The notes under the pieces were generated by a model. It searched no databases, was not told the origin of the DNA, and saw only the letters and a program-made list of their open reading frames with translations. Source: Lachnospiraceae bacterium NE2001 (lineage in GTDB: Bacteria > Bacillota > Clostridia > Lachnospirales > Lachnospiraceae). Taken from it: DNA of 64,000 bases. Where the stretch lies: NCBI GenBank assembly GCA_900110635.1, contig FOEK01000013.1, positions 1-64,000 of the forward strand, written 5' to 3'. Shown here piece after piece: positions 13,821-24,835 of the stretch. The position numbers and the translations under genes are program-made. The stretch's first letter is position 1; each line of letters begins with the position of its first letter.

Positions 13821-13928
13821 ATCTGTTACACCCTCGTATCTTATGATAATTCACATGACATTTAAAAGTTAGTATTTCTAAAAGCATCTTCTCTGTAAAA
13901 ACTTGGTGTTCGTAAAGTATTTAACAAA

Positions 13929-13957
13929 ATGGTATTATTTTTGTTTACGTTCGTCAA
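13929..13957 (-). promoter_or_regulatory. Putative promoter of the fumarate reductase operon
   Basis: Minus-strand TTGACG (13952-13957) and TACCAT (13929-13934) lie 17 bases apart, about 110 bases before frdC. The rest of 13821-14109 is AT-rich and shows no gene. Confidence 0.45.
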
Positions 13958-14109
13958 GTTTTGGCTCGTAATTGTCGAAAAAAAAGCCTTTCAAAATGTA
14001 TGATAGGTATAGGGAACTAAATCGATATAGAAATATTACGGAGGTTAAAAAATATAATTATCTATATGTTTTTATGGTAAAGCGCTGTCAAAATGCTGTC
14101 ACAAGACAT

Positions 14110-14150
14110 AAAAAAATCCCGCAACCCCTTTATTTATAAGGGATTGCGGG
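14110..14150 (-). terminator. Intrinsic terminator after the fructose operon / guaA remnant
   Basis: Minus strand: CCCGCAATCCCTT pairs with AAGGGGTTGCGGG around a short AT loop, followed by a T run (14110-14116). It lies 9 bases beyond the guaA remnant stop, so it was probably the terminator of the ancestral guaA copy and now ends the fructose operon. Confidence 0.85.
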
Positions 14151-14159
14151 AAATTGTAT

Positions 14160-14183
14160 TTATTCGTACTCCACAGTTGCTGG
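14160..14183 (-). pseudogene. Last seven codons and stop of a second guaA copy
   Basis: The minus strand reads PATVEYE and stop, identical to the last seven residues of the intact GuaA at 23855-24835 but with different synonymous codons. It begins right after the stop of the DeoR-type regulator gene. Its missing upstream part is at 22112-22236, which ends exactly at YTPKP; joined, the two give the GuaA C-terminus with no gap. Confidence 0.8.
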
Positions 14184-14185
14184 TA

Positions 14186-14941
14186 TCACTCATCAACAAT
14201 CTTTATATCCAATGATTTCATATAGAGTTTTCCCGGATTCTTATCGGTGATCACAACCGTTCCGCCAAAATCGGCAAATGTAACGGCATATGATTGTCCG
14301 AACTTATCGTGGTCCGCCAAAACAAATCTTGAACCGATCTGTGTATTCTGAATAGCAACTCTTTTTATAAGCGCTTCTCTGACATCCGGAGTGGTATATC
14401 CCAGTTTATTATTGATACCATTTGTACCGAAGAATCCTTTTGTGAAATGATATTTCTGGATATACAGGATCGCATCAGCCCCTACAACGGCTTCCGTATT
14501 TTCTTTCAGTTCCCCACCGATAAGAAGTACCTTACAACCTTTTCTTACCATATCCTTTGCATGAGAAACCGCATTCGTTACATATGTAGCATGTTTCTCG
14601 GTTATATAATCAATCATATATTCCGTTGTAGTTCCCGAATCAATAAATACATAATCTCCGGGCATGATCAGACTCGCAGCATATTTTGCTATTCTCAGCT
14701 TTTCATCTTTATTGATCGATTCTTTAACAATAACCGATAATTCTTCGGATGATGGTGGCTCATCAAGAGCCACCGCTCCTCCGAAAACTTTTATAAGCTT
14801 ACCTTCACGACTAAGTGCTGTTATATCTCTTCTGATCGTTGATTCAGACACACCCAGTTCATCTGTTAACTCCTGAACAGTCACACTTTTCTCAGTATTT
14901 ACTTTTTTTAGTATATGCAACTTTCGCTCTTCTGTAAGCAT
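14186..14941 (-). CDS. fruR: DeoR-family regulator of the fructose operon
   Basis: A DeoR winged helix-turn-helix fills residues 1-57 (KVNTEKSVTVQELTDELG, then VSESTIRRDITALS). The sugar-phosphate-sensing C-terminal domain follows (DYVFIDSGTTTEYMIDYI, VTNAVSHA, GFFGTNGI, ADHDKFGQ). Such repressors of fructose operons respond to fructose 1-phosphate or fructose 1,6-bisphosphate (family knowledge). It is the last gene of the module, 16 bases after ptsI, so it would be autoregulated. The likely operator is the AATCAAA/GGTCAA repeat before fruK. Confidence 0.9.
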   Translation of the reverse strand: MLTEERKLHILKKVNTEKSVTVQELTDELGVSESTIRRDITALSREGKLIKVFGGAVALDEPPSSEELSVIVKESINKDEKLRIAKYAASLIMPGDYVFIDSGTTTEYMIDYITEKHATYVTNAVSHAKDMVRKGCKVLLIGGELKENTEAVVGADAILYIQKYHFTKGFFGTNGINNKLGYTTPDVREALIKRVAIQNTQIGSRFVLADHDKFGQSYAVTFADFGGTVVITDKNPGKLYMKSLDIKIVDE

Positions 14942-14957
14942 TTCTCTTCACCTCGTT

Positions 14958-16613
14958 TTATTTGTAACCTTTTTCTTCCTTATACTCGGAAACATTTGTT
15001 TCCAAAACCACCTTCCTGAGTGGAAGAATTCTTCCCGGTGAAACCGATAATTCATCATATCCCATAGCCAGAAACTCTTTTGTAAGTGAAAGGTCCGATC
15101 CCAGCTCTCCGCATATTCCGGCCCAGGCTCCTCCCTTATGAGCTCCGTCTACGATCATCTTCAACATCTTGAGAAGTCCCGGATGATGTGAATCATAGAA
15201 CTCATCAAGACTCTCATTCTGTCTGTCTATAGCCAGAGTATATTGTGTCAGGTCATTAGTTCCGACTGAGAAGAAGTCAACTTCTTCAGCCAGTTCTTCG
15301 GCCATCATAACCGCTGCCGGAGTTTCGATCATAATACCAAGTTCGATATCCTTGTCATATAACAGACCGTCGGCATCCAGTTCTTTTTTCACTTCGGCTA
15401 CTATATCTTTTATCTTCTTCACTTCCTCAACGGAAATGATCATCGGGAACATGATCGATATCTTACCAAATGCAGATGCTCTAAGTATCGCACGAAGCTG
15501 AGTCTTGAATATCTCAGGTCTGGTAAGACAAATCCTTATCGCACGAAGCCCCATTGCAGGATTCTCTTCATGAGGAAGATTGAAATAATCCGCCTGCTTA
15601 TCGGCTCCGATATCCAGTGTACGGATAATGACTTTCTTTCCCGCCATAGTCTCGGCAACCTGCTTATAGATAGCAAACTGTTCTTCTTCGGTCGGATAAT
15701 CATCCGAGCCGAGATATATAAACTCGGAACGGAAAAGTCCTATTCCGCCAGCATCGTTTTTAAGCACCAATGCAAGATCTTTCGTATTACCGATGTTTGC
15801 ATAAAGGTTTATCTTCTGTCCGTCAAGAGTTACATTTTCCTTACCCTTAAGCTGTTCAAGTAGAGTTTTCTTTTCCTGTTCCTGAAGAAGTATTTTCTTC
15901 TTTTCTGCCAGAACATCAGGATCCGGATCGATATAAACCTTTCCTTCGAAGCCATCAACTATAGCTTCTCTTCCATTCATCTCATCTGTAAGCGGAATAT
16001 CACAACCTATTATCGCCGGTATATTCATGGTCTTAGCCAGGATCGATGTATGGGAATTCGCAGAACCGTGAACGGTAACAAAGGAAAGTATCTTACCCTT
16101 ATCCATCTGAACGGTTTCCGAAGGAGCCAGATCATCGGCAACAACTATAACAGGTTCATCACTTTCTATTCCTTCACTTCTGCCGCCTGCAAGACAATTG
16201 ATGATCCTTTCGGTAATATCTTTAACGTCTGCCGCACGTCCGCGGAAATATTCGTCATCCATTTCCAAAAACATCTTCTGGAAATTATCTCCGGTTTCGG
16301 CAACAGAAAACTCGGCATTAAGCCCCTGAGAGCGAATGATATTCTCTACGGAATCTATATAGTCACCGTCCTCAACCATCATCTGGTGAGCTTCGAATAT
16401 CTCGGCACTCGCCTCACCTACTTCTTTTACTGCCTTCTCATAAAGAGCCTGAAGCTGTTCAACTGCTTTTGCTCTTGCATCTTCGTATCTCTTAACTTCC
16501 GCTTCAACATCCTCTACTTTTTCTCTTTTTACAGTCTGTTCAGATTTTTTGAAAACAGAAAGCTTTCCAATGGCAACACCTTCAAATACGGCTCTGCCTT
16601 CTTTTATTATCAT
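14958..16613 (-). CDS. ptsI: PTS Enzyme I (phosphoenolpyruvate-protein phosphotransferase)
   Basis: The 551-residue protein has the standard Enzyme I order: N-terminal HPr-binding helical domain, phosphohistidine swivel domain with His188 in TVHGSANSHTSILA, then the PEP-binding barrel with IGLFRSEFIYL, GIMIETPAAV, FFSVGTNDLTQYT and GICGELGSD (catalytic Cys). It takes phosphate from PEP and passes it to HPr. It is slightly short of the usual 570 residues. It is part of a fructose operon rather than a stand-alone ptsHI locus. Confidence 0.97.
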   Translation of the reverse strand: MIIKEGRAVFEGVAIGKLSVFKKSEQTVKREKVEDVEAEVKRYEDARAKAVEQLQALYEKAVKEVGEASAEIFEAHQMMVEDGDYIDSVENIIRSQGLNAEFSVAETGDNFQKMFLEMDDEYFRGRAADVKDITERIINCLAGGRSEGIESDEPVIVVADDLAPSETVQMDKGKILSFVTVHGSANSHTSILAKTMNIPAIIGCDIPLTDEMNGREAIVDGFEGKVYIDPDPDVLAEKKKILLQEQEKKTLLEQLKGKENVTLDGQKINLYANIGNTKDLALVLKNDAGGIGLFRSEFIYLGSDDYPTEEEQFAIYKQVAETMAGKKVIIRTLDIGADKQADYFNLPHEENPAMGLRAIRICLTRPEIFKTQLRAILRASAFGKISIMFPMIISVEEVKKIKDIVAEVKKELDADGLLYDKDIELGIMIETPAAVMMAEELAEEVDFFSVGTNDLTQYTLAIDRQNESLDEFYDSHHPGLLKMLKMIVDGAHKGGAWAGICGELGSDLSLTKEFLAMGYDELSVSPGRILPLRKVVLETNVSEYKEEKGYK

Positions 16614-16619
16614 TCAGTA

Positions 16620-18566
16620 CTACCCCCTCTCGTGTTCTTTGATAAGACCTATCCGATAGCACTCTATCAGTTCTTCAAGGTCGAATATTCTTTTCTTAAG
16701 TTCCTCACCTATGTCCGTATCCCTTACAAGCAGTCTTCGAGGAAGCATTTCCGTAACATACATTTTCGGAGTATTATCTCCCTTTCGGTCGTATTCCGTA
16801 TGCTCGGCAAGCGCCAGATGATGGGAATTAAATATAAGCGTATAACCTGCTATTCCCGTTCTTCTGTGATAAGCCTTGGACAGACCTCCGTCTATCACAT
16901 ACAGCTTTCCGTTAGCTTTCACAGGCTTCTCGCCCTTCACAACCTTTACCGGAACGTGACCGTTTATTATATGGGAAATCTCCGGATTCATTTCAAATTC
17001 TTCGAATATTTTATCGCAATACTCAGACTGTTTTGAAAACTCGTAATAAGCATTATAGTTTTCTTTAGCCAGTTCTTTTTCTTCTAAATAAATGTGTTCA
17101 AAAGTGGCCATTCTGTCTTTACCGAAAAGCGGAGATATAGGTCCTGCCCACATATACCACATAAGGTCAACTCCGTATCTTTTCTTTTCCGGCTCATCGA
17201 ACTCATCCGCAAAATATGCATCAATGATCTTCTCTTCAAAGAAATCCATCAGATCTTTTCCCCTATACTTACCCTCATCGGTAGCAAGGACTATAAATTC
17301 CCCATTCTCATCCATCGGAATACATCCGTGGAACAAAAGGTTATTATTGTACTTCTTATATATACTTCCGTGAGAATATAAAAATCTGATATGTTTCTGA
17401 AGTCTTCTGCTATGAAGGAATGATATCTTGAGAGTCTCAACGAGTTGTTCCTCTTCATCCGTAAGCTTATACGGATTCTTCGGATCGATCGTAGGAAAAT
17501 TCATATCCTTCATCTTATATTCCTTATCACCGATAAGAACCGTTCCTTTTTCATAGTCGATTTTATCAAGCAGGAGTCTGTCATTCATCTGAAACTCCGC
17601 GTGACGCTTTATAAGCTGACCTGACAGTTTCAGTTCGATAATGGAAATTGCCTTGCACATTTTTGCAGCAAGTGATGGTGAAACAGAATCATATTCATTA
17701 TCATCAAGTAAATGCGGCCAAAAGCATTTACATTCATCATTCTTATATATCTTATCCGCAAACATAGAGAGCGGTCTCAGATTTATACCGTATCCGTCCT
17801 CAAGCACATCAAAGGAATTATAGCCTGTAGCAATTCTCAGAACTGTTGCTATACAGGTTGTGTTTCCCGCTGCGGCGCCCATCCAGCTTACATCGTGATT
17901 ACCCCACTGGATATCCACGTTCCTGAACTTTATCAGCTCATCCATAACGTAGTCAGCTCTCGGACCACGATCGAATATATCTCCGATGATATGAAGTGTA
18001 TCGATAAGCAGGGACTGTATAAGTTCAGCTAAGGCTATAATGAAATCATCTGCCACTTCTATTTTTGCAACTGATTTGATTATCTCGTTATAGTACAGTC
18101 TTTTATCAGGTTCAGATTCATCCGTATGAATCAGCTCGTCTATTGCATACCCGTATTCTTCGGGCATCTTTTTACGAACCTTTGATCTTGTATACTTCGA
18201 AGAAACTTCCCTTACAAGCATAACAAGCTGATGAATGGTACGTTCGTACCATCCATCAGCTATCTCACCTGAATGTTTCATAGTAATAAGTACTTCGTTA
18301 GGATAATAGATGAGATGAGCGAGCTTACTTTGTTCTTCTTCCGTCATAAGGCTGCCGAATACATCTTCGATCTTCGCCTTAACCACGCCCGAAGCACTCC
18401 GGATAAGATGTATAAAGCTTTCATACTCACCATGTATATCCGAAAAGAAGAATTCATTTCCCTTTGGAAGTGCCAGGATGGCATTCAGATTTATCATCTC
18501 TGCAGCACAGCTTCGTGCACTCGGAAACTCGTGACTGAGAAGATTTAAATAATCCATATCTCTCAT
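16620..18566 (-). CDS. fbp: Fructose-1,6-bisphosphatase, class III
   Basis: At 648 residues it matches the Firmicutes class III FBPase, a metallophosphoesterase-type enzyme. Metal motifs: FFSDIHGEYESF (D-x-H), IIGDIFDRGPRADYV (GDxxDRG), IQWGNHDVSWMGAA (GNHD) and IINGHVPVK (GH). It hydrolyses fructose 1,6-bisphosphate to fructose 6-phosphate. Fructose taken up as 1-phosphate enters as the bisphosphate, so hexose 6-phosphates must be made by this enzyme. That explains its place between ptsH and ptsI. Confidence 0.97.
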   Translation of the reverse strand: MRDMDYLNLLSHEFPSARSCAAEMINLNAILALPKGNEFFFSDIHGEYESFIHLIRSASGVVKAKIEDVFGSLMTEEEQSKLAHLIYYPNEVLITMKHSGEIADGWYERTIHQLVMLVREVSSKYTRSKVRKKMPEEYGYAIDELIHTDESEPDKRLYYNEIIKSVAKIEVADDFIIALAELIQSLLIDTLHIIGDIFDRGPRADYVMDELIKFRNVDIQWGNHDVSWMGAAAGNTTCIATVLRIATGYNSFDVLEDGYGINLRPLSMFADKIYKNDECKCFWPHLLDDNEYDSVSPSLAAKMCKAISIIELKLSGQLIKRHAEFQMNDRLLLDKIDYEKGTVLIGDKEYKMKDMNFPTIDPKNPYKLTDEEEQLVETLKISFLHSRRLQKHIRFLYSHGSIYKKYNNNLLFHGCIPMDENGEFIVLATDEGKYRGKDLMDFFEEKIIDAYFADEFDEPEKKRYGVDLMWYMWAGPISPLFGKDRMATFEHIYLEEKELAKENYNAYYEFSKQSEYCDKIFEEFEMNPEISHIINGHVPVKVVKGEKPVKANGKLYVIDGGLSKAYHRRTGIAGYTLIFNSHHLALAEHTEYDRKGDNTPKMYVTEMLPRRLLVRDTDIGEELKKRIFDLEELIECYRIGLIKEHERG

Positions 18567-18581
18567 CTATCGTACCTCTTT

Positions 18582-18839
18582 TTACAGGTTTGCTTCCATA
18601 AACTCCTTAACAGCAGCCATCTCAGCTTCTTCGTCAGGACCTTCGAATGTAAACTTAACTGTATCGCCCTGCTTTGCTCCCAGTGACATGATACCCATAA
18701 GTCCCTTAAATGGAACTTCTCTGTCACCCTTCGCAACCTTAACAGCTGACTCATAATTCTTTGTCAGCTTAAACAGATCTGTTGCAGGTCTTGCGTGAAT
18801 TCCGTGAACATCCTTGATCTCATACTCAAAACTTACCAT
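18582..18839 (-). CDS. ptsH: HPr phosphocarrier protein lacking the regulatory Ser46
   Basis: The 85-residue HPr has the active-site GIHARPA with His15 and the phosphotransfer Arg17. At position 46, where Gram-positive HPr has Ser in K-S-I-M-G, this protein reads PFKGLMGIMSLG, i.e. Gly46. HPr kinase therefore cannot phosphorylate this site, so it should act in phosphotransfer but not in CcpA-linked catabolite repression. FruB-type HPr domains of Proteobacteria similarly lack the serine. It lies between fruA and fbp. Confidence 0.95.
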   Translation of the reverse strand: MVSFEYEIKDVHGIHARPATDLFKLTKNYESAVKVAKGDREVPFKGLMGIMSLGAKQGDTVKFTFEGPDEEAEMAAVKEFMEANL

Positions 18840-18888
18840 ATCGGTTACCTCCTGATTTTTATATATTTTTACGTTATTGATTTCTTAT

Positions 18889-20979
18889 TTATTTATTCAT
18901 TTCAGCCGGCTTCTTGATAAGTCCGAGCATTATACATGTAACTGCCGAACCAACCAACCATGCTACGATATACATAAATGGATTTCCAACTGTTGCGAAT
19001 ACGAAGAGTCCACCGTGAGGTGCCATAAGTGTACATTTGAAGAGTGCTGCAAGGAATCCCGCAACTCCTGCTCCAACCATTGTACAAGGAATAGTGTGAA
19101 GCGGATCTGCCGCTGCAAATGGGATAGCTCCCTCAGTGATGAATGAAGCACCCATGACAACATTTGATACAGCCGAACCACGTTCTGCCTTCGTAAACTT
19201 CTTAGGGAATATCCAGCATGCAAGTGCGATACCAACCGGTGGAACCATACCACCAACCATGATTGCTGCCATTGATACATAGCATGCAACAACCTTCGGA
19301 TCGTCTGCGGACATTCCACTGTTCAGATAATCAGATGCCTGAGTAAGCATACCAACACCGAATACATAAGCCGCTTTATTGATAGGACCACCCATATCTA
19401 TTGCCATCATGGCACCTAAGATGAGTCCGAGTACTGTCAGCATTCCCGCATCGGAAATAGCTGTAAGCATATGTGAAAGACCTGTGTTTGCAAGTCCGAT
19501 AAGCGGATTAAGTATGAAGCACATTATCACGCCTTCAAGGAAGATACCAACGAGCGGATAAATAAGTGTCGGCTTGATTCCATCCAGTGCCTGTGGAAGA
19601 TTTGCACACAGCTTCTGAAGTCCGAGAACGATAAATCCTGCAAGGAAACCTGCTACGATACCGCCGAGGAATCCGGATACTGTATTACCACCGTCCGGCT
19701 GCTGGAATGCAAACTTGGAAAGGAATTCTCCGAATCCACCGATTGCTTTTCCGTCTACAAGTGTGCCTTCTGCAAATGTATATCCGGAAAGGAGTGCATT
19801 ACCGTTGGATGCAAGCATACCACCTACAAATCCGACTGCAAGACCCGGTCTGTCGGCTATCGCATAAGCTATATATCCTGCAAGAACCGGAACCATAAGT
19901 CCCATAGCGAGACCACCGATATACTTAAGAAGTGCTGCAAGTGGTGTGATACTACCGAAGTCTCCACCACCTGTTGCTCCGTATCCTGCTATTGTATCGA
20001 TCAGGAATGCAATAGCTACGAGGATACCACCACCGATTACGAAAGGAAGCATATGGGAAACACCGTTCATAAGCCAGGTATAAATCTTATGTCCTACGCT
20101 ACCCTGATTTTCTGTTTTTTCGCTTTCGCTACTTTCCGAAGCATCTCCCGAGAAAATAGGCGCCGAGCCGGCTTTAACAATTCCCATCAGCTCATCGGCT
20201 TTATTTATTCCGTCTGCAACCTTACGCTGAATAACCTTCTTACCTTTAAATCTATCCATAGGTACTTTCGAATCAGCTGTTACTATTACACAGTCAGCTG
20301 CAGCTATATCTTCATCTGTAAGGACATTCTTTGCTCCCGAGGAACCCCTGGTTTCTATCTTAATCTTTATACCTGCCTTATCAGCTGCTTTCTCAAGACC
20401 TTCGGCAGCCATATAAGTATGAGCGATTCCGGTAGGACATGAAGTTACGGCAACAACCTTAAGTGCGCCGGATGTATCATCAACTATAGATGTTTCTGCT
20501 ATTGTCTCATCAACACTTCCTCTTCCCTCGTCGGTTCTGTCTACGATATCGATAAACTCGTCAACATCCTTAGCATTAATGAGTGAATTACGGAAGTCTT
20601 CATCCATAAGCATCATGGAGAGCTTTGAAAGCACATCCAGATGTACATTATCTTCTGTATCAGGAGCTGCAATAAGGAAAAGAATATTTACAGGTTCCTC
20701 ATCAAGTGCTTCGAAATCAACTCCATCTTTTATTACCATTGCCGCAAGTCCCGGCTTGTCGACACAGTCGCCTTTTCCGTGAGGAATAGCTATTCCTTCT
20801 CCTACTCCTGTGGTGCTTTCTTCTTCACGTGCATACACCAGTTTTTTATAAGCTTCTTTGTCTTTGATCTTTCCGCTTTCCACCATAAGATCTACGGCCA
20901 AATCCAGCGCTTCACTTTTAGACTTCGGTGCCGCATCAAGACTTATACTCTTCTTATCAAGAAGTTCTATTATCTTCAT
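18889..20979 (-). CDS. fruA: Fructose-specific PTS transporter EIIABC
   Basis: The 696-residue protein has three fused domains. EIIA (1-150) has His67 in GIAIPHGKGD. EIIB (about 170-270) has Cys181 in VTSCPTGIAHTYMAAEG. EIIC (about 295-690) has around nine membrane helices, including MLPFVIGGGILVAIAFLID and GGPINKAAYVFG. It imports fructose with phosphorylation to fructose 1-phosphate, receiving phosphate from HPr. The ATG follows fruK by 17 bases. Confidence 0.97.
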   Translation of the reverse strand: MKIIELLDKKSISLDAAPKSKSEALDLAVDLMVESGKIKDKEAYKKLVYAREEESTTGVGEGIAIPHGKGDCVDKPGLAAMVIKDGVDFEALDEEPVNILFLIAAPDTEDNVHLDVLSKLSMMLMDEDFRNSLINAKDVDEFIDIVDRTDEGRGSVDETIAETSIVDDTSGALKVVAVTSCPTGIAHTYMAAEGLEKAADKAGIKIKIETRGSSGAKNVLTDEDIAAADCVIVTADSKVPMDRFKGKKVIQRKVADGINKADELMGIVKAGSAPIFSGDASESSESEKTENQGSVGHKIYTWLMNGVSHMLPFVIGGGILVAIAFLIDTIAGYGATGGGDFGSITPLAALLKYIGGLAMGLMVPVLAGYIAYAIADRPGLAVGFVGGMLASNGNALLSGYTFAEGTLVDGKAIGGFGEFLSKFAFQQPDGGNTVSGFLGGIVAGFLAGFIVLGLQKLCANLPQALDGIKPTLIYPLVGIFLEGVIMCFILNPLIGLANTGLSHMLTAISDAGMLTVLGLILGAMMAIDMGGPINKAAYVFGVGMLTQASDYLNSGMSADDPKVVACYVSMAAIMVGGMVPPVGIALACWIFPKKFTKAERGSAVSNVVMGASFITEGAIPFAAADPLHTIPCTMVGAGVAGFLAALFKCTLMAPHGGLFVFATVGNPFMYIVAWLVGSAVTCIMLGLIKKPAEMNK

Positions 20980-20996
20980 TCTTTGTTCCTCCTTCT

Positions 20997-21902
20997 CTAC
21001 TCTACTGTTGAATAAACCTTCATGATTTCTTCTTTTGTTGCCAGGTTATCAGAAAATGCGCTGGCTGACCCCGAACTAAGTCCCAGTTTAAATGCATGGA
21101 GCAAATTCTTTTCTGTCAGATATCCCGCTATAAATCCTGCTACCATTGAATCGCCTGCACCTACGCCGTTAACGAGTTTCCCTTTCGGAGCTTCTCTCAT
21201 GTATACTTCTCCATTGCCGTTTACAAATACCGCACCTTCACCGGCCATGGAAATGATTACATTTTCCGCTCCCATTTCAAGTAGCTTCTGAGCGTACTCA
21301 ACAACGCTCTCTCTAGTTTCCAGTTTGACACCAAAGATTTCTCCAAGTTCATGGTTATTAGGCTTTATAAGGAATGGTTTGTATTTGAGTACATTTAGCA
21401 GGAGATCTTTGGTAGCATCGACTACTATCCTAATTCCCTTTCCTTGAAGATTTGCCATAATATCACTGTATATGGTTTCAGGCATACTAGAAGGAATACT
21501 TCCTGCAAGAACAAGAGTATCCCCTTCCTTTAATCCATCCAGCTTTTTATACAGTTCTGCTATAGCTTCATCAGAGATGTCAGGACCCATACCATTTATC
21601 TCGGTACCATCAATTGATTTAAGCTTAAGGTTAATTCTGGAACATCCTTCGCTGATCCTGATTTCATCAGCTTTTATTCCGCTTTCCTTTATCCTTCTTG
21701 TTATCTCGTCACCTACAAATCCTGCCGAAAAATATATGGCAGTGTTTTCGATTCCGAGATTACTGAGAACGATCGAAACATTAACTCCCTTACCTCCCGG
21801 CAGCATCAGCTCCGATGTTGTCCGGTTAGTAAGCCCAAGCTTAAAATCATCAACCGTAACGATATAGTCAAGTGATGGGTTAAATGTTATGGTATATACC
21901 AT
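20997..21902 (-). CDS. fruK: 1-Phosphofructokinase
   Basis: The 301-residue PfkB-family kinase has the N-terminal motif MLPGGKGVNVSIVLSNLG, KPNNHELGEIFG, and the C-terminal PfkB signature GVGAGDSMVAGFIAGYL with the catalytic Asp. It converts fructose 1-phosphate to fructose 1,6-bisphosphate with ATP. It is the first gene of the operon. A strong AGGAGG ribosome site lies 7 bases before the ATG. Confidence 0.96.
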   Translation of the reverse strand: MVYTITFNPSLDYIVTVDDFKLGLTNRTTSELMLPGGKGVNVSIVLSNLGIENTAIYFSAGFVGDEITRRIKESGIKADEIRISEGCSRINLKLKSIDGTEINGMGPDISDEAIAELYKKLDGLKEGDTLVLAGSIPSSMPETIYSDIMANLQGKGIRIVVDATKDLLLNVLKYKPFLIKPNNHELGEIFGVKLETRESVVEYAQKLLEMGAENVIISMAGEGAVFVNGNGEVYMREAPKGKLVNGVGAGDSMVAGFIAGYLTEKNLLHAFKLGLSSGSASAFSDNLATKEEIMKVYSTVE

Positions 21903-21933
21903 TTTGCCACCTCCTATTTTACATCATAAATTC

Positions 21934-22001
21934 AGTATATAATCAAACTCGGTCAAAATCAAGCAAAAAGTTGACCAGTTTTAATCAAATTGGTCAACTT
22001 T
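21934..22001 (-). promoter_or_regulatory. fruK promoter with repeated operator motif
   Basis: On the minus strand TTGATT (21957-21962) and TATACT (21934-21939) are 17 bases apart. On the plus strand two direct copies of AATCAAA-n2/3-GGTCAA occur at 21941-21956 and 21983-21997; the first lies in the promoter spacer. An 11-base perfect inverted repeat (AAAGTTGACCA and its complement, 21967-21977 and 21991-22001) overlaps the upstream copy. This is where the DeoR-type regulator would bind (inference). Confidence 0.6.
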
Positions 22002-22111
22002 CATTTTTAATCATTTATATTCAATTTGTATAGTGTTCAACGGTTGCTACAACCGCAGATAAATATGCCGGTCCGAACAGATTCAGGTGGTTTATAAGGT
22101 GATATAGATTA

Positions 22112-22236
22112 TGGTTTTGGTGTATAGTCGAACAGCACTCTATTGATTCCCGGTACTTCTGTAATTATTCTCTGAACCAGGTGGTCGATCAGTTCGTCTG
22201 AAAGGTGTTCTACGGTAACTTCCATAACATCTGTTG
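22112..22236 (-). pseudogene. Internal-to-C-terminal fragment of a second guaA copy
   Basis: The minus strand reads ATDVMEVTVEHLSDELIDHL and on to ITEVPGINRVLFDYTPKP, almost identical in protein to the intact GuaA (one Asn-to-Gln and one Thr-to-Ala change) but with many synonymous differences. It then runs into unrelated sequence (IIY...). Its 5' side is cut within five bases of the stop codon of the DUF4143 ATPase. The remaining PATVEYE-stop lies 7.9 kb away at 14160-14183. Confidence 0.9.
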
Positions 22237-22240
22237 CTGT

Positions 22241-23560
22241 TTACAAAAATATTGCCATATAAAGAGGCAAAGTAATTTTCTTTTCAGATACACCAACATT
22301 TCCATCGATAAGTTTATAGCCATATGGGATTTCATCTTTTTTCAAAATATTATCCAAAGATTTAGAACGGCTTCTGCCAGATTTTACTTCGATAGGAATA
22401 ACACCTTCTTTGTTCTCAATAAAGAATTCAATCTCGAATGAAGAAGCTTCGTCTTTTCTAAAGTATATATTTTTGTGTCCGTTTTTTATAAGCATATCTG
22501 CTATGACTGCTTCATATAGTCCGCCTTTCACCATTGAATTTAGCTTTTCCGCGTTAGGATGAAGTATCAGTTCCTTGACCGAATTGTCATACATTCCCAC
22601 CAGCAAACCTATATCAGTTGGATAAATACGGAAATTGTCATCTATTCTTTTACTGATCAGGGGGATATCATATCCAGAAATATTATATATTTTTCTAATA
22701 AGATATGCACCTTCCAGCCAGTCAATACTTGAACCATATTTTCTTGCCGCCCCACCTTTTTCAACAACTGAATACATAAATTTATGATTTTCCTTTGATA
22801 ACTGTTTAGCTAAAGAGAAATAGCAGGATTCGGCCTTTATTTTTACATCCGTGGATGCGTAATGAGCTATATCATATCGATAGTCATTTAAAATGCTTTT
22901 TATTTTTTCGCTTGAGTCAGATATTGAATCAGATTCGAAGTAAAGACTTACGACTTCCGGCATTCCACCAATTATCATATAAAGTCTCAAGTATTCCATC
23001 ATTTTATCGTGTATTGCCCAAGGGACAACAGTTTTGCTGTCATAATACTCTTTCAATGTATTGATTATATCGTCATTTATTCCCGCGGCGTATAAAAATT
23101 CTCTAAAGTTTAGAGAAAACATATCAATATACTGTATAGAGCCAACGGGATAAGATGTAGGTCTTTTATAGTCAATCCCAAGCATTGAACCGGATACGAT
23201 TAAATCGAAATCCTTTTCTTTTTCAAGAAATTTAAGTGCAGTGATTGCTTCCGGACATTCTTGTATCTCATCAAGGAAAAGACACGTTTTTTTAGAAATG
23301 AATTTACTATTGGGAATATATAATGAGATATTGGTCTTTATTGTTTTTGCATCAAGATTACCTGAAAAAATCATTTTCATTTGTGGACTTTCAAGAAAAT
23401 TTATCTCGATAAAAGACTCGTATTCTTTCTCGCAGAATCGTTCAATTGCGTATGTTTTTCCAACCTGTCTCGCCCCTCTGACCATAAGACATTTATGGTT
23501 TTTGTCAGATTTCCATCTTTTAAATTCCTCAGTCACTTCTCGTCTTAATTCTTTATTCAT
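22241..23560 (-). CDS. AAA ATPase with DUF4143 domain
   Basis: About 439 residues from ATG 23560. The AAA_14 domain has Walker A VRGARQVGKTYAI and Walker B TCLFLDEIQECPEAI, followed by IVSGSMLG (sensor 1). The C-terminal DUF4143 region ends with FEIEFFIENKEGVIPIEVKSG, a PD-(D/E)xK-like core. Such genes are common, often multi-copy, in anaerobes; their function is not established. An ATG at 23620 would add 20 residues, but it lies inside a palindrome repeat, so the later ATG is preferred. The gene sits between the guaA fragment and the intact guaA. Confidence 0.85.
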   Translation of the reverse strand: MNKELRREVTEEFKRWKSDKNHKCLMVRGARQVGKTYAIERFCEKEYESFIEINFLESPQMKMIFSGNLDAKTIKTNISLYIPNSKFISKKTCLFLDEIQECPEAITALKFLEKEKDFDLIVSGSMLGIDYKRPTSYPVGSIQYIDMFSLNFREFLYAAGINDDIINTLKEYYDSKTVVPWAIHDKMMEYLRLYMIIGGMPEVVSLYFESDSISDSSEKIKSILNDYRYDIAHYASTDVKIKAESCYFSLAKQLSKENHKFMYSVVEKGGAARKYGSSIDWLEGAYLIRKIYNISGYDIPLISKRIDDNFRIYPTDIGLLVGMYDNSVKELILHPNAEKLNSMVKGGLYEAVIADMLIKNGHKNIYFRKDEASSFEIEFFIENKEGVIPIEVKSGRSRSKSLDNILKKDEIPYGYKLIDGNVGVSEKKITLPLYMAIFL

Positions 23561-23576
23561 CGCAATAAAACCCCCG

Positions 23577-23633
23577 AAAATATGCATGGTTACATATTTT
23601 ACCCTACCAAAAATATGCATCTATGCATATTTT
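23577..23633 (-). promoter_or_regulatory. Palindromic operator repeats before the DUF4143 ATPase
   Basis: AAAATATGCAT occurs at 23577-23587 and 23610-23620; the second copy faces its exact complement at 23623-23633 with a two-base spacer, a perfect 11-base-arm palindrome. The sequence lies directly upstream of the ATPase start. It looks like a binding site for a dimeric regulator, or for autoregulation. Confidence 0.55.
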
Positions 23634-23665
23634 AACACTTATTAAATGTAAAAGTCAATTTCTCT

Positions 23666-23699
23666 CATCGGGATACCGGCAAAAGCCGGTATCCCGATG
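23666..23699. repeat. Perfect 15-bp-arm GC-rich palindrome
   Basis: CATCGGGATACCGGC is followed by AAAA and its exact complement. No T run follows on either strand, so it is not a standard terminator. It lies between the ATPase promoter region and the composite element at 23709-23848. Confidence 0.8.
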
Positions 23700-23708
23700 T
23701 ATGTTGTC

Positions 23709-23848
23709 GCCAAGCCGAGATAGATAATCAGCGCTGCTTCGCAGCCACTAGCCAATAAAGAAAACACACCCTTTCATGCAAGCATAAGGGTGTGTTTCTT
23801 CATTGACTACCACCTTCGGTGGTCGCTGATTATCTATCTCGGTTTGGC
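23709..23848. repeat. Composite inverted-repeat element after guaA, with nested hairpins
   Basis: Arms of 25 bp (23709-23733 and 23824-23848, one mismatch) enclose three further hairpins: GCTGC-TTC-GCAGC (23733-23745), a 12-bp-arm stem (23762-23773 with 23786-23797), and ACCACC-TTC-GGTGGT (23809-23823). The whole ends six bases from the guaA stop. Size and structure suggest a MITE-like or REP-like element. Confidence 0.75.
23757..23797 (-). terminator. Intrinsic terminator of guaA
   Basis: On the minus strand AAACACACCCTT pairs with AAGGGTGTGTTT around an 12-base loop, followed by TTCTTT. It lies about 60 bases after the guaA stop, inside the composite inverted repeat. Confidence 0.7.
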
Positions 23849-23854
23849 TCGTTA

Positions 23855-24835
23855 TCACTCATATTCCACCGTAGCAGGTGGTTTTGGTGTGTAGTCGAAG
23901 AGAACTCTGTTGATACCTGGAACCTCAGTGATGATGCGGTTTACCAGGTGGTCGATAAGTTCGTCTGACAGGTGTTCTACTGTTACTTCCATAACATCTG
24001 TTGTGTTGATGGCACGGATGATGCAAGGCCAGTCAAATGTACGCTTGCCATCCTTTACGCCGGTTGACTTGAAGTCTGGAACGACTGTGAAATACTGCCA
24101 TACCTTGCCTTCGAGACCATTCTTTGCAAACTCCTCGCGGAGGATTGCGTCGGACTCACGAACTGCTTCGAGTCTATCTCTTGTGATAGCGCCTGGACAT
24201 CTTACGCCAAGTCCTGGGCCTGGGAATGGCTGACGATATACCATATTATCTGGAAGGCCAAGAGCCTTTCCTACTACACGAACCTCATCCTTGAAGAGGA
24301 TACGTACTGGCTCAACCAGTTCAAAGTTCATATCTTCAGGGAGACCGCCTGCGTTGTGATGTGCCTTGATTCCGGCATCACTCTCCAGGATGTCTGGCCA
24401 GATTGTTCCCTGCGCAAGGAACTCGATTCCATCCAGTTTACGTGCTTCCTCTGCAAATACCTCGATGAACTCACCACCGATTATCTTTCTCTTCTGCTCT
24501 GGATCTGTAACTCCTGCCAGCTTATCAAGGAAACGATCGGTTGCATCTACATATACAAGATTTGCTCCCAGTTCTTTACCAAATACTTCAATTACCTGCT
24601 CAGGCTCTCCTTTTCTAAGAAGGCCGTGATTTACGTGAACGCATACAAGCTGCTGTCCTACCGCCTTGATAAGAAGAGCTGCAACTACTGATGAGTCAAC
24701 TCCTCCTGAAAGTGCAAGAAGCACCTTCTTGTCGCCGATCTGTGCCTGCATCTTCGCAATCTGCTCCTCGATGTAAGCATTTGCCTGATCCTCAGTTGTG
24801 ATACGTTCCATATTGTCTGGTCTTGATTCCAACAT
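23855..24835 (-). CDS. guaA: GMP synthase ATP-pyrophosphatase subunit (no glutaminase domain)
   Basis: The 326-residue protein covers only the C-terminal two domains of GuaA: ATP-PPase with P-loop LLALSGGVDSSVVAALL (SGGVDS at 43-48), IIGGEFIEVF, LAQGTIWPDILES, and the dimerisation domain (RQPFPGPGLGVRCPG to YTPKPPATVEYE). The N-terminal class I glutamine amidotransferase half of the usual 510-525 residue enzyme is missing. The start (ATG 24835, GGGAGG 8 bases upstream) and the upstream neighbour show this is not a window artefact. It aminates XMP to GMP, using ammonia or a separate glutaminase as in archaea (inference). Confidence 0.93.
   Translation of the reverse strand: MLESRPDNMERITTEDQANAYIEEQIAKMQAQIGDKKVLLALSGGVDSSVVAALLIKAVGQQLVCVHVNHGLLRKGEPEQVIEVFGKELGANLVYVDATDRFLDKLAGVTDPEQKRKIIGGEFIEVFAEEARKLDGIEFLAQGTIWPDILESDAGIKAHHNAGGLPEDMNFELVEPVRILFKDEVRVVGKALGLPDNMVYRQPFPGPGLGVRCPGAITRDRLEAVRESDAILREEFAKNGLEGKVWQYFTVVPDFKSTGVKDGKRTFDWPCIIRAINTTDVMEVTVEHLSDELIDHLVNRIITEVPGINRVLFDYTPKPPATVEYE

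Follow-up and report, generated by a model that had tools for sequence, protein, structure and literature searches.

A fructose operon between two pieces of a short guaA allele at a recurrent insertion site in Lachnospiraceae

We analysed positions 1 to 64,000 of contig FOEK01000013.1 (assembly GCA_900110635.1) from Lachnospiraceae bacterium NE2001, a stretch here called the window, in which a fructose phosphotransferase system (PTS) operon interrupts the 3' end of a second guaA gene. The operon lies in a 7928-bp insert (22111-14184) between the guaA codons ...KP and PATVEYE, and displaced tails of the same gene were found at this site in relatives. The 3' end of the short guaA is probably an attachment site with tandem accretion, and the fructose segment would be one of its layers, with an integrase that has since been lost. 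Comparisons were made in a working set of 61 genomes, including the source genome (3.7 Mb, 62 contigs, 3.2% estimated contamination). Every gene in the guaA/fructose locus is on the minus strand.

Two pieces of one guaA allele around the insert

The intact guaA of the locus (23855-24835) encodes 326 aa with PP-loop ATPase and GMP_synt_C domains and without the amidotransferase (GATase) domain, and it aligns only to the corresponding C-terminal part of the full enzyme. A full-length guaA-like gene (544-aa frame, 53% identical to the short form) was found on another contig of the genome (C39), indicating that the short guaA is an accessory paralogue. Thus the initial annotation was right in calling this copy intact, but it is the GATase-less short form and not the full-length enzyme. 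Relatives of the short gene at 79% identity or more are present in 29 of 36 genomes of the same genus, three of the 29 matches being partial.

The remains of an older guaA allele flank the insert. On one side, a 125-nt stretch (22112-22236) repeats positions 23879-24003 of the intact gene at 84% identity. Its translation reads TATDVMEVTVEHL...FDYTPKP (TATDVMEV...FDYTPKP) with a stop immediately beyond, and the intact copy is its sole other match in the source genome. On the other side, positions 14160-14183 translate as PATVEYE and a stop. When we searched with a 24-nt degenerate pattern of this ending (P-A-T-V/I-E-Y-E-stop), which detects only remnants retaining PAT, there were exactly two matches in the source genome, the 14183-14160 piece and the end of the intact guaA. 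The reversed control gave no match in any of the 61 genomes. A chance origin of the PATVEYE match is ruled out by these two counts. Joined across the insert, the pieces read ...YTPKP-PATVEYE and stop, the same ending as in most of the intact short guaA genes compared. A recent duplication of the neighbouring guaA was also considered and rejected, since the fragment is 84% identical to its neighbour and its best match found is the copy in genome G030 (86%). These results support the view that both pieces derive from one diverged short-guaA allele, as judged by their sequences.

The insert contains a complete operon of six genes, identified by family and domain matches: 1-phosphofructokinase (20997-21902; TIGR03828, PfkB), fructose PTS EIIABC (18889-20979), HPr (18582-18839; PTS-HPr), a Firmicute fructose-1,6-bisphosphatase (16620-18566; FBPase_2), PTS enzyme I (14958-16613) and a DeoR-family regulator, here named fruR (14186-14941). 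At its left edge the insert begins within a fructosamine-kinase gene, of which just the final codons are present (22021-22111, 91 bp). This stretch was recognized by DNA match and is 82% identical over 28 aa to a gene of G015 and 64% to one of G009, the latter carrying a Fructosamin_kin domain. The right end is 2 nt past the fruR stop codon. With a fructosamine-kinase end at the left and the fruR stop at the right, the insert is a captured chromosomal segment and no tidy element. A palindrome (TTGACCAATTTGATTAAAACTGGTCAA, 22001-21967) that precedes the 1-phosphofructokinase gene is a possible FruR operator; G009 and G015 have sequences like it.

Behind the guaA tail, and now 3' of fruR, is a terminator hairpin (14117-14151) with a 14-pair stem and then a T run; the same terminator follows the intact guaA in G061 and G007. 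The sequence 3' of the scar matched the 3' flank of the intact short guaA at 88% over 86 bp in G061 and at 85% over 117 bp in G007, the second match extending over the terminator as well as the direct repeats that follow. The terminator that closes the fructose operon is thus the old guaA terminator. The direct repeats (14082-14102, TGACAGC twice) resemble those after the intact guaA in G007 and may be integrase arm sites.

Most of this arrangement had been proposed in the initial annotation, namely a GuaA C-terminus up to YTPKP at one end, the missing PATVEYE and stop at the other, a terminator after the rejoined gene, an allele that is diverged and not a recent copy, and a six-gene fructose operon exactly between the pieces. 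The translations, the repeat and pattern searches, the identities to the neighbouring and G030 copies and the family matches bore out each of these points. The fructosamine-kinase remnant in the insert and the further layer upstream were not part of that proposal.

Transfer of the operon between species

In G009, a short guaA is directly followed by the same operon, which matches that of the window in two stretches, one of 5501 bp (98.7% identical) and one of 991 bp (99.0%). The guaA genes of the two are 81.5% identical, and in a background comparison the alignable stretches of an 8.9-kb segment were 68-73% identical between both genomes. The homology of the two operons stops at the same base, 14184, with different DNA beyond. 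Because an identity of about 99% stands against an alignable background of 68-73%, and because the operon is adjacent to guaA in G009 and ends at the same base, this comparison of sequences demonstrates that the operon has recently moved horizontally from species to species within a single gut genus.

The G009 copy may be decaying, as its enzyme I gene (L032 9243-9574) has lost a large internal section; another match to that part (79%) was detected on contig C1 of the same genome. A further fructose operon copy (90%) is on contig C15 of G015.

Among the 61 genomes searched, we found no donor locus in which a fructosamine kinase stands beside the fructose operon. N-terminal fructosamine-kinase matches occurred in six of the 61, and both full genes that were read (G009, G015) are located away from the operon. 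In the relatives read, the flanks of the operon were different from those in the window. A search of PLSDB with positions 13821-24010 returned no megablast match, which leaves a plasmid source unsupported without excluding a plasmid.

The 3' end of short guaA as an insertion hotspot

Of 12 guaA tail remnants detected, two are in the window and ten are spread over nine further loci (L041, L166, L167, L174 with two, L176, L179, L182, L203 and L247). A shorter tail pattern, whose reversed control had ten matches in the 61 genomes, added one clear remnant (G075, recognized via the type-A sequence behind it, described below) and one at a contig edge (G077, uncounted). Five of the 12 begin at the PAT codon, give or take about 2 bp. 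In simulations of uniform breaks over 150 bp, a span of our own choice, at least five starts fell within one 3-bp window in 0.03% of draws (P 0.0003), the observed starts having been judged by eye. The other remnants begin at KPPAT, PPAT, LFDYTPKP, TVEYE, EYE and TTDVMEV, and one is a degenerate copy further up. In detail, a degenerate second guaA tail is found 50 bp after the intact short guaA in L203 (10972-11112), apparently a decayed remnant.

The remnants separate stacked inserts. The window has an intact guaA and two remnants, the same combination occurs on a single contig of G075 (L174), and G015 has one tail and two remnants of the structure described below. In four of the 12 cases a cargo gene ends close to the remnant: fruR at 2 nt, a DUF4143 ATPase gene at 4 nt, a GGDEF gene at 12 nt and a PfkB kinase gene at 17 nt. 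L041 departs from this pattern, its remnant-side cargo being a short repeat of the post-guaA stretch that is cut at the remnant start.

The ATPase gene of this list is the AAA_14/DUF4143 gene of the window (22241-23620), located between the intact guaA and the 125-bp fragment, with its stop codon 4 nt from the latter; it is presumably the cargo of the youngest layer. Genes of this kind recur as cargo near type-A guaA ends (window 23620-22241, L035 3885-5222, L040 4715-6055). Just 5' of the gene in the window are paired inverted repeats rich in TGCATA (23577-23633), possibly an operator. Other cargo 3' of short guaA has a defence-related look, with an Abi-like protein, HsdM, a Schlafen AlbA_2 protein, a YhcG nuclease and a C5 methylase in L031, L036, L037, L041 and L043.

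Of at least 583 confirmed relatives, the best 80, many of them titled Lachnospiraceae, served as the named loci, in which integrases similar to five queries were searched for. Tyrosine integrases were located within 3 kb 3' of the short guaA in 10 of the 43 loci with enough sequence, whereas none was found on the 5' side in 65 loci. Of the 80 loci, 21 have their contig (of a metagenome-assembled genome) ending within 500 bp 3' of guaA, compared with 3 whose contig ends so close on the 5' side; breaks 3' of the gene are as expected of a variable site. The four integrases that were scanned (364-377 aa) have Arm-DNA-bind_4, SAM-like and Phage_integrase domains. A MobA/MobL relaxase is present at one integrase locus (L038). 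In IMG/VR, contig L311 begins in a short-guaA tail (96%, query residues 192-326) and has, at most 130 bp on, an integrase gene facing guaA; the genes further on we take, by eye, to be phage-like. The guaA-adjacent integrases are presumably similar to Tn916 Int. Together, the 12 remnants and the one-sided distribution of integrases mark this gene end as a hotspot, and the initial annotation had noted that guaA 3' ends are known as integration hotspots for islands.

To locate the point of exchange, we compared 59 distinct guaA tails and found five groups, of three or four members each, that have a common downstream end. In three of the five, differences at third codon positions continue up to P-A-T and the tails agree from GTGGAATATGA on, save single changes near the stop. 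The exchange region thus corresponds to about the last twelve bases of guaA. The core reported for GIsul2, GAGTGGGA, is in the same region of guaA (PMC9376610), as is the 11-bp repeat of Tn5801 (PMC4844618). In a tree of 98 guaA genes, 21 of them type A (there defined as any tail with TGATAACGAG, so that L258 counts as A in the tree and as B in our other classification), the type of the 3' end requires 13 changes, nine of which are forced by well-supported branches. The type is also more clustered on the tree than expected from shuffling, since 0-1 of 500 shuffled label sets gave a value as low. By this reconstruction, guaA 3' ends are exchanged often, yet not freely.

Type A refers to a structured element directly 3' of guaA, which in the window (23664-23856) consists of a closed four-way stem structure (23697-23856) and a 3' hairpin. 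The structure has a folding z-score of -14.9, and across 16 distinct copies of its approximately 160 nt there is compensatory change in 35 of 60 pairs. Rfam contained no match to the element at gathering score; among the six weak matches listed, the one to BSnc120 (E 0.36) falls on the 3' hairpin and seems to be a chance hit. An intact guaA tail precedes 15 of the 16 complete distinct copies; the remaining one, in G079, comes after a displaced remnant. Copies truncated at the 5' side are found at far cargo ends in L034, L035, L040 and L166. Observations of a similar kind are the 3' half of the structure in tandem with a 133-bp period in L042 (5372-5652), and structure and guaA remnants spread over about 22 kb 3' of guaA on contig C15 of G015 (L035, L166), where the 90% operon copy lies about 47 kb downstream. 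A 17-mer of the structure occurs in five IMG/VR contigs, a number that we estimate to be at chance level. One might suppose that the structure is a functional part of the hotspot, for instance by folding into a recombination site or as an RNA brought along and displaced by new inserts; we think this rather improbable and offer it as a speculation.

Origin of the insert and relation to known elements

How such a locus may have arisen can be outlined as follows. The 3' end of the accessory short guaA would act as attB for several integrases, those of temperate phages and of mobilizable elements with tyrosine integrases, and successive inserts would pile up there, losing their integrases. An earlier short-guaA allele would have taken up the fructosamine-kinase end and the complete fructose operon between ...KP and PATVEYE, and the displaced guaA tail and terminator would have come to close the operon. 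In a later event, a new guaA end with its type-A 3' structure and the DUF4143 ATPase gene would have been placed in front, with 125 bp of the older allele left between both layers. Of this outline, the insertion with its exact ends, the recurrence of the site, the recent movement of the operon and the presence of integrases at the site in relatives are established by the comparisons above. We infer both the order of these events and the role of an integrase, since lost, as the maker of the fructose insertion.

Several results weigh against this account. No integrase was detected in the 64-kb window with the five queries, as the initial annotation had remarked for the locus, although integrases are present at the site in relatives; the same test was negative for 11 further loci, of which seven have tail remnants. 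The insert is cut into the fructosamine-kinase gene at the left and 2 nt after fruR at the right, and so is without element-like ends. We found no direct-repeat attachment (att) core at both ends and no restored target gene, the codons ...KP passing straight into the fructosamine-kinase remnant. The tail comparison would place the exchange point about 9 bp downstream of this left junction, KP|PAT, and that point is itself not sharp, since two of the five tail groups, both type A, differ further, into the V-E-Y-E codons. The starts of the scars are scattered over codons ~278 to 324, and additional truncated copies start within the 3' structure. Finally, the initial annotation had looked to relatives for a guaA followed by the terminator and the frd operon. 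The guaA-terminator part of this precursor was found in G061 and G007, but the guaA-terminator-frd arrangement was not found in any relative among the 61 genomes; frdC matches occurred in 15 of the 61, including the source genome, with 66% as the next best after the window.

The main rival does without an integrase: the guaA tail would have broken, and a foreign chromosomal fragment with a beneficial operon would have served to repair the break or have been joined to it by one-sided homologous recombination. This would suit a left edge inside the fructosamine-kinase gene, where only one base is shared at the junction, and a right end directly after a stop codon; variable starts of the remnants elsewhere and the lack of an integrase in all seven remnant loci tested point the same way. 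Set against it are the common start codon of five of the 12 remnants, the integrases at this gene end in many relatives and the identical end base of the operon in G009. On balance, we consider capture of this kind unlikely, if deserving of serious thought, and regard accretion at an attachment site as the probable origin.

A second possibility is that the operon is native and that the guaA pieces came to surround it through rearrangement or duplication of the neighbouring guaA. In the relatives read, the operon does keep its gene order elsewhere in the chromosome. However, its identity of about 99% to G009 against the 68-73% background, the complementarity of the two guaA pieces, which come from a diverged allele, and the match of the terminator to that of intact guaA genes elsewhere make this very improbable. 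The terminator match, the recurrent remnants, the shared end base of the near-identical G009 operon and the integrases at the site in relatives support the earlier proposal of an insertion into the 3' end of a second, diverged guaA. An artefact of the draft assembly, for which one could cite the 62 contigs, the 3.2% estimated contamination and the frequent breaks of relatives' contigs at the guaA end, is scarcely credible given that a second genome, G009, has both the adjacency of guaA and operon and the same right end base, and that tail remnants occur in nine other loci.

Integration at the 3' end of guaA is known from other systems. Tn5801-like integrative and conjugative elements (ICEs) of Staphylococcus and Enterococcus integrate there with an 11-bp putative core repeat (PMC4844618). 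The likeness to these elements is the insertion site, and both junctions here (22112 and 14184) are within the last codons of guaA. In contrast to them, the target in our case is a short accessory paralogue in Lachnospiraceae-type genomes, and the insert has metabolic cargo and no integrase. GIsul2 likewise uses the 3' end of guaA as attB; three att sites are reported for it, and its integrase drives the movement of a sub-unit. It shares this attB with other guaA islands, ATE-1 and the IncP island (PMC9376610, PMC5704250). Those islands have other hosts and other cargo. A further comparison is with cis-mobilizable elements (CIMEs) and the tandem accretion of ICEs and integrative mobilizable elements, in which segments without integrase, bounded by remnants of the target gene, are stacked at one gene end (PMC5704250). 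Stacked inserts with target-gene remnants between them were found here too. The fructose insert differs from CIMEs in that an intact att core is missing from its guaA-proximal junction and that its cargo ends in or beside chromosomal-type genes; instead of both attL and attR, a recognizable tail is retained at the right junction only. A literature search on guaA integration in Lachnospiraceae or the rumen, judged by titles, found no work on this site among the papers listed. That guaA 3' ends are integration sites and that inserts accrete at them is already known, and no new mechanism is involved. With a short guaA paralogue as target in this group of bacteria and a fructose operon as cargo, the locus seems to be a new case of a known kind.

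For the biology of these bacteria, the locus means that a complete sugar-uptake operon moves between species of one gut genus via a guaA-end hotspot that harbours integrases. The cargo docks onto the terminator of the very gene it interrupts, and successive insertions can be read off the stacked remnants. What is most novel here, and most deserving of separate study, is the structured element 3' of guaA; this type-A element, which has no Rfam family at gathering score, is open to tests of a part in recombination or in RNA processing.

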